Of a stretch of 38,210 nt of DNA, positions 32,949 through 37,881 are shown in pieces (the stretch's first letter is position 1; the number at the start of each line of letters is the position of its first letter). The DNA is from Methanothrix sp. (lineage in GTDB: Archaea; Halobacteriota; Methanosarcinia; Methanotrichales; Methanotrichaceae). A model generated the notes under the pieces. That model ran no database searches, had not been told where the DNA came from, and saw only the letters and a program-made list of their open reading frames with translations. The position numbers and the translations under genes are program-made. The DNA lies in NCBI GenBank assembly GCA_026394555.1, contig JAPKXZ010000068.1, positions 1 to 38,210 on the forward strand, given 5' to 3'.

Positions 32949-33179
32949 ATGGTAACCGCTACACCGGACGCATCAAGTCTTGCCGAGGTTCTGGATAGGA
33001 TTCTTGACAAGGGTATCGTAGTAGATGTTTGGGCCAGGATCAGCCTGGTTGGCATCGAGATTCTGACCGTCGAGGCCCGCGTTGTCGTGGCATCGGTGGA
33101 CACCTTCCTGCACTACACTGAAGAGATGGCTAAGATCGAACAGGCTGCCATCGGCGCCAGCCCCAAAGTTCCCGCTTAA
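32949..33179 (+). CDS. gvpA: Gas vesicle structural protein GvpA
   Basis: 76 residues, the full length of the major gas vesicle shell protein. The core [45 protein letters not shown] is the conserved helix-strand-strand-helix of GvpA, which assembles into the ribbed hydrophobic wall of the gas-filled vesicle. AGGAGG lies 8 nt upstream of the ATG, consistent with high expression. It heads a plus-strand gas vesicle operon that continues beyond the window. Confidence 0.97.
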
Positions 33180-33192
33180 GGAGTGAAGAAAA

Positions 33193-33503
33193 ATGGTAAC
33201 CGCTACACCGGACGCATCAAGTCTTGCCGAGGTTCTGGATAGAATCCTTGACAAGGGTATCGTTGTCGATGTTTGGGCCAGGGTCAGCCTGGTGGGCATA
33301 GAGATTCTGACCGTCGAGGCCCGCGTTGTCGTGGCATCGGTGGACACCTACCTGGGGCCAGGATCAGCCTGGTGGGCATCGAGATTCTGACCGTCGAGGC
33401 ACGCGTTGTCGTAGCATCGGTGGACACCTACCTGCACTACACTGAAGAGATGGCCAAGATCGAACAGGCTGCCATCGGCGCAACCCCCGGCGTTCCTGCT
33501 TAG
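33193..33503 (+). pseudogene. gvpA: Second gvpA copy, frameshifted by an internal 80-nt duplication
   Basis: The first 54 codons repeat gvpA almost exactly, then an 80-nt segment is duplicated (33275-33354 and 33355-33434). Because 80 is not a multiple of three, the frame breaks after VDTYL and ends at 33390 as a 65-residue product with a foreign tail ([11 protein letters not shown]). The proper GvpA ending [22 protein letters not shown] lies in another frame and stops at 33503. Removing one 80-nt unit restores a complete 76-residue GvpA. The two units differ at four bases, so it looks like a fusion of two gvpA copies. An assembly join error in tandem gvpA genes is also possible. Confidence 0.88.
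33275..33434 (+). repeat. Two tandem 80-nt units within the second gvpA
   Basis: Both units begin GGGCCAGG and end GACACCTACCTG. They differ at four of 80 positions. The unit covers the two central beta-strands and start of the second helix of GvpA. Confidence 0.92.
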
Positions 33504-33540: not shown

Positions 33541-34230
33541 ATGGAAGATTACGCAAACACCAAAATAGAGACCTTCGACGAGCTTATGACCAAGCACACT
33601 CGGCGAGAACTGGAAGAACTGGCTCTGAAGTATGGCATAGAGAATTTGGGCGGAACAAAGTCCCAGTTGGCTGAATACATTCTGGAGACTATTAAGAAGC
33701 AAAAAGAGCCACCCAAGTCCACGCCACAGGTGAGTTCCATACCACAGGTGAGTTCCATACCACAGGTGAGTCCCAAGGAGGCTCCAATGATCGAGAAATC
33801 TAATTCTACGACGAAAGTCGCTATGGTGGGCAAAAAAGGTGTGATGGCCAAGGTCACTGCTATCAACAGCAAAACAGCTGAGATGAAGCAAGGCATAGCA
33901 GTATTTCAGAAATCTGTGGCTGTCCAGAGTAAAGAGAACCGTGAGGCTGCGGCAAAATTCAACTCCGGAGTAAAGACGCTTCAAAAAGAGAACCATGAGG
34001 CTGCGGCAAAGATCTACTCCGGGGCAAAGGCAATTCGGTCCGGGATTGACGCCCAGATAAAGGAAAACCATGAGGCTGCGGCAAAATTCAACTCCGGAGT
34101 AAAGACGCTTCAAAAAGAGAACCATGAGGCTGCGGCAAAGATCTACTCCGGGGCAAGGGCAATTCAGTCCCAGATTGACGCCCAGATAACGGAGATGAAG
34201 AACTACACGAGCGATTTCTACTATGGGTAA
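33541..34230 (+). CDS. Repeat protein in the gvpC position, with SAP-like head
   Basis: 229 residues. Residues about 18-52 (TRRELEELALKYGI...GTKSQLAEYIL) resemble a SAP or Rho-N helix-extended-helix motif. A linker holds three PQVSSI-type hexapeptides (62-77). Residues 131-216 are two 43-residue repeats, each made of an 18-residue KENHEAAAKFNSGVKTLQ and a 25-residue KENHEAAAKIYSGAKAIRSGIDAQI unit; earlier degenerate copies probably cover 100-130. The repeats should form long amphipathic helices. In haloarchaea and cyanobacteria GvpC, also built of helical repeats, lies between gvpA and gvpN and stiffens the vesicle. Position and build suggest a GvpC analogue; direct homology is not visible. 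GGAGGA precedes the ATG. Confidence 0.85.
   Translation: MEDYANTKIETFDELMTKHTRRELEELALKYGIENLGGTKSQLAEYILETIKKQKEPPKSTPQVSSIPQVSSIPQVSPKEAPMIEKSNSTTKVAMVGKKGVMAKVTAINSKTAEMKQGIAVFQKSVAVQSKENREAAAKFNSGVKTLQKENHEAAAKIYSGAKAIRSGIDAQIKENHEAAAKFNSGVKTLQKENHEAAAKIYSGARAIQSQIDAQITEMKNYTSDFYYG
33931..34188 (+). repeat. Two tandem 129-nt coding repeats
   Basis: A 129-nt (43-codon) unit occurs twice in tandem, nearly identical at the DNA level. Inside each, GAGGCTGCGGCAAA recurs after 54 nt and again after 75 nt, so the unit itself arose from two unequal sub-repeats. The high identity points to recent duplication or ongoing homogenisation. Confidence 0.92.
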
Positions 34231-34286: not shown

Positions 34287-35372
34287 ATGCGTTATATTGA
34301 AGCACATCCACGGAGGGTGAGGGGAGAAGCGATTCACATGACTGCGGCAGAGAAAAGAGCCAGCGAGATATCTTCGATTGGCGCGGCAGACATGGAACCC
34401 GACATCCAGGTCAGAATCAGGACGCCCGCAAATCGGGACGGCAACTACGAAATGATCTCGATGGAGGCCAAACGCCAGGCCATTGAGGAAGCCTATCTAA
34501 CTCCGGAGGTGAAGCATTTCATAAAGACGCCTGAAGTTATTGAGATAGAGACCAGGATGAAGCTGTGGCTCCAGGCAGGCTACCCCGTTCACCTCATCGG
34601 CCCCACAGGCTGCGGAAAGACCAGCCTGGCCGCTCATGTTGCCCATGAGATGGGCAGACCCGTGGTCTGGATAAACGGAGATGAGGCCGTTACCACCAAC
34701 GATCTGATCGGAGGCTATTCTCAGATGCAAAGCGAGAGTGTGCGAGATAATTACATCCACAACGTCTTCAAGAGCAAAGATGTGACGAAGATGGAATGGG
34801 TGGACAATCCCCTCACTTTGGCCTGCAAATACGGCTACACCCTGATCTACAACGAGTTCTCCCGGACCAAGCCCGCTGCCAATAATATTCTCCTCTCCGT
34901 CTTTGAGGAAGGTATACTGGAGCTGCCCACCAAGTTCGGAGAGGATAGGTATGTCAAAGTGCACCCGGACTTCAACGCCATATTCACCAGCAACTCCGTG
35001 GAATATGCCGGGATTCACAGGCCGCAAGATGCGCTTCTGGATAGAATGGTGGGAATCTACACCGATTACTACGGCTGCGAGACCGAGGCGCGCATCGTAG
35101 AGGAGCACTCCGGGATCTCCCAGGAGAAAGCAGAGCGGATTGTCAGCGTGGTGAGGGCCATAAGGGAGAAGCTTCCTGATGCCCAGAAGCCGGGCACCAG
35201 GGCCTGCATTATGATCGCCACGGGCATGAGAGCTCTAAACGGCCACGGCAATATCAACTTCGAGCAGCTCTGCACAGATGTGATTGCCAACAAGACCAGC
35301 TCGCCTGCGGATATGGTAGCCAAGAAGAAGCTGATCCAGGACTGCATGACCCAGCTGGCCCAGTTAGCTTGA
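34287..35372 (+). CDS. gvpN: Gas vesicle AAA+ ATPase GvpN
   Basis: 361 residues. The MoxR-like AAA+ domain begins near residue 75 (TPEVIEIETRMKLWLQAGYPVHLIGPTGCGKTSLAAHVA, Walker A GPTGCGKT), continues with GDEAVTTNDLIGGY, Walker B-like LIYNEFSRTKPAANNILLSVFEEG and sensor IFTSNSVEYAG. This is the GvpN pattern; GvpN is required for vesicle enlargement. An N-terminal extension of about 65 residues is longer than in most GvpN proteins. An in-frame ATG at residue 18 is an alternative start, but GAGGGTG upstream of the first ATG supports it. The 56-nt gap before it is T-rich and may hold a weak terminator or internal promoter. Confidence 0.95.
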   Translation: MRYIEAHPRRVRGEAIHMTAAEKRASEISSIGAADMEPDIQVRIRTPANRDGNYEMISMEAKRQAIEEAYLTPEVKHFIKTPEVIEIETRMKLWLQAGYPVHLIGPTGCGKTSLAAHVAHEMGRPVVWINGDEAVTTNDLIGGYSQMQSESVRDNYIHNVFKSKDVTKMEWVDNPLTLACKYGYTLIYNEFSRTKPAANNILLSVFEEGILELPTKFGEDRYVKVHPDFNAIFTSNSVEYAGIHRPQDALLDRMVGIYTDYYGCETEARIVEEHSGISQEKAERIVSVVRAIREKLPDAQKPGTRACIMIATGMRALNGHGNINFEQLCTDVIANKTSSPADMVAKKKLIQDCMTQLAQLA

Positions 35373-35393: not shown

Positions 35394-35762
35394 ATGCAGA
35401 GAATTGATGCCGTTATCAGGGATGCAGAGGTAAACAAGATTTACGACCTCTTTTCCCGTAAGCCCGCCGGCCTGGGGTTCAACGAGACTGAGGCTCTGGT
35501 GGTCATAGGCATGACCGAGGACGGAAGATTAGTCCAGGATACCTTCTATCTCGGCCTCAAGGCGGATGGAACCTTTGACCCGCATCCAATGGGAAGAGAC
35601 GCGGTCAAATACAGGAGGCACAGGCTGGCATCATTTTTAGAATACTACAAAATGACCGACGATGTCAGCAACTATAAATTAAGAGAGGGATTAAAGGACT
35701 GGATAGGAAAGCACGTAGAAGTGGTTCAAGAAGATGAGAACCTGGCCATCTACGTTCCTTAG
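35394..35762 (+). CDS. Unrecognised 122-aa protein between gvpN and gvpO
   Basis: 122 residues, soluble, mixed alpha/beta, no cysteines. GGAGTG precedes the ATG; it begins 21 nt after gvpN and ends 10 nt before gvpO, so it belongs to the operon. Visible features include ETEALVVIGMTEDGRLVQDTFYLG, which reads like a beta-hairpin, and a basic KYRRHRLASFLEYY helix. I do not recognise it as any of the usual gas vesicle proteins. It may be a lineage-specific assembly or chaperone factor, inferred from position only. Confidence 0.8.
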   Translation: MQRIDAVIRDAEVNKIYDLFSRKPAGLGFNETEALVVIGMTEDGRLVQDTFYLGLKADGTFDPHPMGRDAVKYRRHRLASFLEYYKMTDDVSNYKLREGLKDWIGKHVEVVQEDENLAIYVP

Positions 35763-35772
35763 GTGATTTCAG

Positions 35773-36054
35773 ATGACAGATAAACTCAGTATCCAGGAGA
35801 TCGGCGAGAAGGCCGGCCAGGCGGCAGAGGTGCTGTTGAAGAAACCCATGGACAGCATAATCAGCCTCAACAAAGAGCAGGAAGGATGGTTGGCCGAAGT
35901 AGAAGTGGTGGAGAGAAAATCCGTACCTGACACTCAGGATATCCTGGGTAGGTACGAGATGAAGTTCGATGAGATGGGAGAGCTCCAGGGTTATCGGAGA
36001 ATAAAGCTGCGCCGCAGATTGGACCGGGAGGAAATTACAGACGAAGAGGTGTAG
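35773..36054 (+). CDS. gvpO: Gas vesicle protein GvpO
   Basis: 93 residues. The C-terminal two thirds carry the GvpO signature: GWLAEVEVVERKSVPDTQDILGRYEMKFDEMGELQGYRRIKLRRR. GvpO is a small accessory protein needed for vesicle formation in haloarchaea and also found in actinobacterial clusters. In the haloarchaeal operon gvpO directly follows gvpN; here one unknown gene lies between. Confidence 0.9.
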   Translation: MTDKLSIQEIGEKAGQAAEVLLKKPMDSIISLNKEQEGWLAEVEVVERKSVPDTQDILGRYEMKFDEMGELQGYRRIKLRRRLDREEITDEEV

Positions 36055-36058
36055 CTCC

Positions 36059-36745
36059 TTGGCAAGGCGGATTCTGAGCGCGGAGAGACAGGCTCCAGAG
36101 GGCAAGGGGAAGTATGCCTATTGCGTCATACGATGTCCTCCTGAAAGAGAGAGCTTCGGAGACCTCGGTTTTGAGGGCGAGGAGGTTTATTCCCTGGATT
36201 ACAGGGATCTGGCGCCGGTAGTCAGTGATGTAGCCTTCCGGGAATACGCTGTGAACGAAGCCGAAGTTGAGACCCACAAGAAGGTGGTAGAGCAGGTCAT
36301 GAAGAAGTACAGCGTACTCCCCGTGGCCTACGGCATGGTTTTCAAGAACAGAAAGCTCCTGCAAGTCGCCATGGGCGCCGGCTACCAGGCCATGCAAAAG
36401 GCCCTGCAAGTGGTGGACGGCAGGGTCGAGCTGGGAATCAAAGTCTTTCTGCCCAAGGAACTCGAAGACTGGACTGCCGGCGAAAAGGAAGAATGCAGGT
36501 CGGACTTTCTCACCAGCCTTCGCAACAAAGCCGAAGATTCGAAGGAACTCAAGCTCTTCAGCGATCGCTTGATACTTAACGCGGCATTTCTGGTAGATGG
36601 TGCGAGAATCGAGGAGTTTTCCGAGCAGGTGGACAGGCTGGCGATGAAATTCGAAAAGCCGAAGCTGCAATATTCCGGTCCGTGGCCGGCTTACAACTTC
36701 GTGGACATCCACATCCTGGGCAGTAAACGCAAGGGGTTCAGATAA
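36059..36745 (+). CDS. gvpF: Gas vesicle protein GvpF/GvpL
   Basis: 228 residues, full length for the GvpF/L family. The N-terminal KYAYCVIRC strand, VYSLDYRDLAPVVSDV, HKKVVEQVMKKYSVLPVAYGMVFKN and C-terminal YSGPWPAYNFVDI are all conserved family positions. GvpF binds GvpA and probably seeds assembly. Translation starts at TTG 36059, supported by GAGGTG about 7 nt upstream and only 4 nt after the gvpO stop. Whether it is F or L in function cannot be separated by sequence alone; the position before gvpG favours F. Confidence 0.94.
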   Translation: MARRILSAERQAPEGKGKYAYCVIRCPPERESFGDLGFEGEEVYSLDYRDLAPVVSDVAFREYAVNEAEVETHKKVVEQVMKKYSVLPVAYGMVFKNRKLLQVAMGAGYQAMQKALQVVDGRVELGIKVFLPKELEDWTAGEKEECRSDFLTSLRNKAEDSKELKLFSDRLILNAAFLVDGARIEEFSEQVDRLAMKFEKPKLQYSGPWPAYNFVDIHILGSKRKGFR

Positions 36746-37027
36746 ATGTTTATTGTGGACGATCTCCTCCTCCGGACGCTGGGATTATCCCTGCCGGGTT
36801 TCGACATGATCTGGATGCTCGAGCAGGTCCAGAAGTTTGCCTACAAAGAGCTATACAACCCGGAGACGATCAAGAATCAGATAAAAGAGACCCGGTTGCT
36901 CTACGAGTTCGGGGAGATGGCCCGCGAGGAGTATGAGCGGAAGAACTCTGAGCTGATGGACAAGCTCAGGCTGGCATTAAAGGCCGAGGAGATGAATTTG
37001 AGCTCTCGGACAGAAATTTTGGGATAA
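36746..37027 (+). CDS. gvpG: Gas vesicle protein GvpG
   Basis: 93 residues starting immediately after the gvpF stop. The N-terminal LGLSLPGFDMIWMLEQVQKFAYKELYNPETIKNQI followed by YEFGEMAREEYERKNSELMDKL is the GvpG pattern of a short helical protein. GvpG is an accessory protein thought to interact with GvpF and GvpA during nucleation. Confidence 0.92.
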   Translation: MFIVDDLLLRTLGLSLPGFDMIWMLEQVQKFAYKELYNPETIKNQIKETRLLYEFGEMAREEYERKNSELMDKLRLALKAEEMNLSSRTEILG

Positions 37028-37209: not shown

Positions 37210-37233
37210 CTCGTCTGAAGATGGGGGATGCAA

Positions 37234-37497
37234 ATGAATAATTTATTAAAGCAAAAGGTTTTGGAGAACAAGAGGCGCCAGCATGCCTTTGTGACCGCAC
37301 ATAAAAAAAAGCTCCGGGATGAAGACAAACCCCGGCTCAGGGAAGCAAGGAGAGCTCAGATGGAGAATGTCAAGGACGTTCAACGAGATCAAAAGCCCAC
37401 ACAAATAGGCAAGTTCTCGGCCCATAAACGAAAACCGGTACCGGGGGCTCATAAACGGAGACCAAGATTGCTGAGTGTAACGATCCGGAAAAGATAA
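37234..37497 (+). CDS. Small basic GvpI-like protein
   Basis: 87 residues from ATG 37234; an ATG two codons earlier directly abuts the GGGGG ribosome-binding site and is less likely. The protein is strongly basic throughout, with repeated KRR, KKK and HKRK clusters (FSAHKRKPVPGAHKRRPR). Haloarchaeal GvpI is likewise a small very basic protein encoded between gvpH and gvpJ and interacts with GvpH. Position and charge suggest a GvpI equivalent, but sequence homology is not clear. It could alternatively bind RNA or the acidic partner next door. Confidence 0.6.
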   Translation: MNNLLKQKVLENKRRQHAFVTAHKKKLRDEDKPRLREARRAQMENVKDVQRDQKPTQIGKFSAHKRKPVPGAHKRRPRLLSVTIRKR

Positions 37498-37512: not shown

Positions 37513-37881
37513 ATGAACGGACTGGAGCCTAGCCGGACCCAGAACAGCTTGGCCGATGTAGTGGGAATGATTCTGGATAAAGGCCTGGTGATCAACGCGG
37601 ATATTGCAGTATCTGTGGCAGGCACAGAACTTCTAGGCATTAAGATTCGGGCAACTCTGGCATCCTTTGAGACCGCGGCCAAATACGGTCTGGAGATGCC
37701 CGCGGGCACCAATCTGAATGCACCAGGGTGGAAAGATGCTCTCAAACCCAAGGCCAACTGCCCAGAATGCGGAAACAGAAGAGATGAAGATCTGCTGATT
37801 CGAGAGGGCTGTCACATCTGCGGTTGGTCAAGCCCTGTACCCCTGCCCATCATCCGGGGGAGCCTTGGAAATTACGATTGA
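37513..37881 (+). CDS. gvpJ: GvpA-family protein GvpJ with a C-terminal zinc ribbon
   Basis: 122 residues. Residues about 12-60 (SLADVVGMILDKGLVINADIAVSVAGTELLGIKIRATLASFETAAKYGL) are a GvpA/J/M core, closer to GvpJ than to GvpA because of the INADIAVSVAGTELLGI segment. After a short linker, C83-x2-C86 and C100-x2-C103 (CPECG and CHICGW) form a zinc-ribbon knuckle. GvpJ is a minor wall-like protein in nucleation. The zinc ribbon is an addition I do not know from standard GvpJ proteins. Confidence 0.88.
   Translation: MNGLEPSRTQNSLADVVGMILDKGLVINADIAVSVAGTELLGIKIRATLASFETAAKYGLEMPAGTNLNAPGWKDALKPKANCPECGNRRDEDLLIREGCHICGWSSPVPLPIIRGSLGNYD

Follow-up and report, generated by a model that had tools for sequence, protein, structure and literature searches.

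A candidate GvpC-type shell protein with a SAP/Rho_N-like head in the gas-vesicle gene cluster of Methanothrix

The gene between gvpA and gvpN

The window, that is, the whole 38,210-nucleotide stretch of Methanothrix sp. DNA that was analysed, carries a gas-vesicle gene cluster whose features are given in Table 1. An intact open reading frame of 229 codons, with an ATG start just preceded by GGAGG, encodes a protein of 229 residues in the interval between gvpA and gvpN. This position had been proposed in a sequence-only reading of the same DNA, and both neighbours are now identified by family models (NF046092 and TIGR02640). Downstream of gvpN lie gvpO, gvpF/L and gvpG, followed by a gvpJ-like gene.

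The frame of the second gvpA is broken by a tandem duplication whose two units are identical at 76 of 80 positions. Since relatives carry two to four intact gvpA copies, the break probably results from two copies having been assembled into a chimera. The assembly consists of 75 contigs, and the suggested mis-assembly of tandem gvpA copies also bears on the number of repeats in the gvpC-like gene. A very basic protein of 89 residues is encoded at 37228-37497, in the gvpG/gvpJ interval; its blastp match to Halobacterium GvpI is weak (E 0.028), and it is possibly a GvpI analogue. GvpI has been described as specific to haloarchaea.

Table 1. Coordinates of the gas-vesicle genes in the window and of the parts of the gvpC-like gene
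Feature	Coordinates	Strand	Details
gvpA, major rib protein	32949..33179	+	NF046092 E 1.7e-39, above curated cut-off
second gvpA, frame-broken	33193..33503	+	80-bp tandem duplication at 33275-33434
gvpC-like gene	33541..34230	+	head, disordered linker, 128-residue amphipathic helix, two 43-residue repeats, YTSDFYYG end
SAP/Rho_N-like head	33574..33705	+	residues 12-55; helices 12-18, 21-30, 40-55 (AlphaFold2)
disordered linker	33709..33831	+	residues 57-97, pLDDT <50 (AlphaFold2); PQVSSI repeat (TRF)
single predicted helix, amphipathic	33841..34224	+	residues 101-228 (AlphaFold2)
43-residue repeat, copy 1 (18+25)	33931..34059	+	residues 131-173
43-residue repeat, copy 2 (18+25)	34060..34188	+	residues 174-216
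C-terminal motif YTSDFYYG	34204..34227	+	residues 222-229
gvpN	34287..35372	+	TIGR02640 E 1.6e-106, above curated cut-off
gvpO	35773..36054	+	PF05800 E 4.5e-23
gvpF/L	36059..36745	+	PF06386 E 2.5e-45
gvpG	36746..37027	+	PF05120 E 2e-14
gvpJ-like	37513..37881	+	PF00741 E 3.4e-14; NF046090 E 6.7e-32, under NF046090 cut-off

Predicted head, linker and rod

Structure prediction of the protein alone, with an AlphaFold2 model built on an alignment of 18 sequences, divides it into a small head made of helices, a linker predicted to be disordered and a single helix of 128 residues, with block-mean pLDDT of about 91-97 over most of its length. When the head is modelled by itself, the same helices are obtained as in the full protein. 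Foldseek relates it to the FAN1 SAP domain (prob 0.90-0.97) and to the Rho N-terminal domain (rmsd 1.5-1.7 Å, 28-30% identity), with E >0.1 throughout, as expected for a query of 45 residues. Among the 18 heads of the family, Pfam Rho_N matches 15 (best E 3.8e-4; the window protein falls under the curated cut-off) and SAP_new25 matches 12. The SAP-like motif that had been noticed at the N-terminus from the letters thus reappears as a predicted fold. All 18 heads carry a net charge of -1 to -4, and this mild acidity disfavours nucleic-acid binding, a role that is not supported for the head by the sequences compared here.

The other elements of the earlier description were also recovered. The hexapeptide repeat of the linker is PQVSSI and runs from 33724. 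The two 43-residue repeats, found by TRF as well, are identical at 39 of 43 residues and 122 of 129 bases, and their 18+25 split is apparent from the 11-12 of 18 residues that the 18-residue part shares with the other half of each repeat. Given the identity at the level of bases, the 43-residue duplication is probably recent. The 43-residue unit is real in the window protein and specific to it, whereas most relatives have a period of 58 residues, so that it stands as a local form and not as a trait of the family.

The rod has a hydrophobic period of 100 degrees in the window protein (z 4.0 over shuffled sequences). The rods of all 18 members peak at 99-100 degrees per residue (z 4.0-9.8 against shuffles), which corresponds to 3.60-3.64 residues per turn, and this constant period implies that one face is apolar along 126-269 residues. 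At 1.5 Å per residue, the 128-residue helix would measure 192 Å, or about 15 GvpA subunits at 12.7 Å, these being calculated and not measured values. The corresponding rib-spacing arithmetic for the repeats (43 residues, 64.5 Å, about five GvpA at 12.7 Å; 33 residues, about four) is suggestive, and was left out of the evidence because haloarchaeal repeats do not fit integers. A match to the type III needle model NF011854 (E 0.0019, score 18.9 against a cut-off of 96) was dismissed as an effect of helix composition, and the other Pfam, NCBIfam and PDB sequence matches are weak and of coiled-coil or apolipoprotein-like character only.

Homologs, gene order and the end motif

The window gene belongs to a real family and is not an orphan. 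Homologs are found in 18 of 50 genomes of an archaeal family, apparently Methanotrichaceae, and all 18 sit between gvpA and gvpN. A full-length gvpN is present in 19 of the 50 genomes, and 17 of these carry the homolog; in the other two (G030 and G035) gvpN lies at the very start of a contig, where the slot is unreadable, so wherever gvpN is complete and the slot can be read, the homolog is there (17 of 17). The 18th homolog comes from a genome (G015) in which the contig ends within gvpN. No homolog was found in those of the 50 genomes that have no gvp genes. In the alignment of the 18 members (229-363 residues, varying by repeat number) the head is conserved and the linker variable; a GV(M/L/R)AK-like segment follows, then the helical repeats and, at the end of every member, FYYG. 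In another family the A1 profile picks up L036 and L038-L041 (E 5e-5 to 6e-4); these are chemoreceptor-like sensory proteins of considerable length and not gvp genes.

A published study indicated that Mthe_0055-0063 of Methanothrix thermoacetophila are regulated as one gas-vesicle cluster, and its gas-vesicle expression table skips Mthe_0057 and Mthe_0059 (PMC10470525). In one genome of the family (G046) the order is gvpO-x-gvpN-x-gvpA-gvpA-gvpA-gvpA. This order fits Mthe_0056-0063 and places the unlisted Mthe_0059 in the position of the window gene, from which we infer that Mthe_0059 is its homolog; an overlooked gene would thus lie beside the listed gas-vesicle genes of Methanothrix. A separate gene of the window, at 35394-35762 in the gvpN/gvpO interval, encodes 122 residues and is conserved in the window family and in Methanocellales (46% identity). 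Its product matches no Pfam family and no credible NCBIfam family; it is a candidate new gvp gene and fits Mthe_0057.

Every member of the family ends in [YF]x[RKNS][DE]FYYG, with FYYG invariant in 18 of 18. The broader pattern [YF]x[RKENS][DETARN]D?F[YW]{1,2}G is present in all 18 family members, in 11 of 11 haloarchaeal GvpCs and in 7 of 7 other archaeal slot proteins, counts that are only descriptive because the pattern was written after the groups had been inspected. Its specificity against background frames carries more weight. The probability of the motif in shuffled sequences is at most about 3e-4 per protein, and it occurs in 35 of the 2,205 distinct open segments of the whole DNA fetched; 34 of these are gvpC-slot proteins, and all 35 look gvpC-type. 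The 35th (L044, G100:C20:5574-5789) is a Methanocellales segment of 68 residues that ends in FKKEFWG and lies away from the main cluster; it had already been picked out by the family profile, contains an in-frame TGA in the matched stretch and is a second copy, perhaps a decayed one. In haloarchaeal GvpC the motif stands at the end of the helical repeats, ahead of an acidic stretch and a zinc finger.

The seven other slot proteins, previously unannotated, come from Methanosarcina (79 and 103 residues), Methanocellales (131 residues) and Methanophagales-like archaea (56-64 residues). All lie in the gvpA/gvpN interval, gvpA being beyond the contig in one case (L025). The window family is 43% identical to a Methanosarcina slot protein over 60 residues, and hhalign against the Methanosarcina/Methanophagales-type proteins gives P 2e-11, which together point firmly to a common origin. 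Because the Methanosarcina and Methanocellales forms are headless, the head is, by this comparison, an addition to the core rod. The gene is not part of every methanogen cluster, since in one genome (G392) gvpA is directly followed by gvpN.

Other slot proteins were seen along the way. Those of further archaea and of a Chloroflexi MAG (L094:1356-2273, L095:1254-2201, L098:1552-2760, L024:5270-5947) have a helical rod and no FYG motif; the winged-helix-looking domains seen by eye at their C-termini were not confirmed. In two haloarchaeal slot proteins (L100:1055-2077, L109:652-1902) a conserved stretch of about 45 residues (KLKxAANxxGYDGNLNAAxKDELV) replaces the terminal zinc finger. These tails look convincingly SAP-like by eye and were set aside, as Pfam found nothing and the hhalign alignment was bad. 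In an archaeal MAG, gvpA is preceded at a short distance by a tandem ArsA-like ATPase gene (L026:2831-4876), and a ParA gene follows gvpO in Halobacterium (L056:4448-5212); the two are possible partition-type partners.

Hmmscan and the genome search with PF05465, PF01304 and the NCBIfam GvpC models gave no match to the window protein, which is therefore not a member of the Pfam GvpC families; for PF05465 (Halo_GVPC) the threshold is 22.4 bits and Halobacterium GvpC (382 residues) scores 244.8 bits. The statement of the sequence-only reading that no direct GvpC homology is visible agrees with this search. In the comparison of profiles, hhalign against haloarchaeal GvpC gives P 2.9e-5 (probability 74%), falling to P 0.012 when only the columns of the first row, the window protein, are used (reversed controls, 0.2), and the link rests mostly on the end motif. 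Homology to haloarchaeal GvpC is likely, with the profile comparison suggesting it rather than proving it.

A GvpC-type reading and its alternatives

Our results argue with good confidence that the gene encodes a GvpC-type protein that would bind and reinforce the outer shell of gas vesicles in Methanotrichaceae. The amphipathic helix of 128 residues would lie along the GvpA ribs with its apolar face to the shell, span roughly 15 GvpA subunits and so stiffen the vesicle wall. The conserved (R/K)(D/E)FYYG sequence would be where the rod terminates and probably serves for docking, either against the shell or with a partner; the head, on its flexible linker, would project outward. By analogy with the zinc-finger end of haloarchaeal GvpC, the head is most likely a hub for protein-protein contacts, with GvpN, GvpO or a neighbouring GvpC as partners, rather than a DNA binder. 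The earlier suggestion of a strongly diverged or independent rib-reinforcing protein is supported by the slot, the co-occurrence with gvp genes, the long amphipathic helix and the shared end motif. Between its two halves we favour strong divergence. Nevertheless, GvpC-like working is held with more confidence than homology, because the haloarchaeal link leans on the end motif and weakens with the window columns. A convergent analogue, GvpC-like in its working and independent in origin of both haloarchaeal and cyanobacterial GvpC, would account for the missing PF05465 and PF01304 matches, for repeats of 58 and 43 residues instead of 33 or 32-40 and for the weak profile score; the slot and gene order, which are those of haloarchaea, and the same rod end make such an origin doubtful, though it merits serious consideration.

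An amphipathic helix alone would also fit a soluble assembly factor or chaperone, which would work alongside GvpN and GvpO, coating GvpA while the ribs grow, without becoming a stable shell component. The gene adjoins gvpN and gvpO, and there are assembly Gvps that occur just as minor components (PMC9501494). A long repeated rod of constant phase, with its length set by the number of repeats, speaks instead for a periodic surface such as a rib, and the end motif in common with haloarchaeal GvpC points the same way, so that this role seems unlikely. Less probable still is a nucleic-acid-binding regulator or tether, whose head would bind DNA or RNA, either to regulate expression of the gvp genes or to fasten vesicles to the nucleoid. 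The fold of the head agrees with it, and the terminal end of Halobacterium GvpC likewise matches a DNA-binding family (ROS/MucR, E 1.9e-6). However, the charge of the head is unusual for a DNA-binding SAP domain, the Methanocellales and Methanosarcina members keep rod and motif without it, and in haloarchaeal GvpC the binding partners of the globular zinc-finger end are GvpF, H, I, L, N, O and GvpC itself (PMC9372576, PMC9501494). GvpC thus offers a precedent for a domain of nucleic-acid-binding ancestry in protein contacts. We also consider a broader scheme, improbable when taken whole, in which an ancient archaeal GvpC-type rod of 56 to 360 residues with a common aromatic docking end was fused, lineage by lineage, to domains of nucleic-acid-binding type (SAP/Rho_N in Methanotrichaceae, ROS/MucR in haloarchaea), the Methanotrichaceae head still binding nucleic acid and linking vesicles with the nucleoid or with the expression of gvp genes.

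The GvpC-type reading contradicts a 2022 review, in which methanogen gvp clusters are described as being without gvpC (PMC9501494); a 2015 review gives no gvpC for Methanosarcina barkeri (PMC4586473). Among open-licence papers, none was found that treats gas vesicles and a SAP domain together. If the protein is a shell rod, reinforcement of the GvpC type may be general in archaeal vesicles, the rod-end motif would provide one docking site that can be tested in archaea at large, and vesicle engineering would gain minimal rods in the very short forms. The natural repeats of 43 and 58 residues offer a means to probe repeat length against rib spacing.

In Anabaena, GvpC is an amphipathic helix that follows the ribs around the vesicle circumference, bound to helix 2 of GvpA, and each 33-residue repeat covers about four GvpA (PMC10185304, PMC9994262). 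The window protein has in common with cyanobacterial GvpC (PF01304, Anabaena flos-aquae) an amphipathic helical tandem-repeat rod encoded beside gvpA, and differs in that it lacks the 33-residue consensus, carries a head domain in addition and ends in FYYG. The head shares with the FAN1 SAP and Rho N-terminal domains a predicted three-helix fold and the G-x-K-x-x-L signature (GGTKSQLAEYI), but it is acidic, scores below the Pfam thresholds and is joined to a vesicle rod. The slot proteins of Methanosarcina, Methanocellales and Methanophagales-like archaea resemble the window protein in slot, end motif and homologous rod, and differ in their much shorter rods and in having no SAP-like head. In haloarchaeal GvpC (PF05465, Halobacterium salinarum), the repeats are of 32-40 residues instead of 43 or 58, and the small globular domain is a C-terminal ROS/MucR zinc finger instead of an N-terminal SAP/Rho_N-like head; the window protein has no cysteine, no C-terminal zinc finger and no acidic tail, its sequence stopping at FYYG, so that the motif is the very C-terminus. 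Common to both are the gvpA-C-N-O slot, a long rod of helical repeats, a small globular end domain and a rod end, [FY]x[RE][DET]FYG in haloarchaea, in which F-Y-G is invariant in both alignments.
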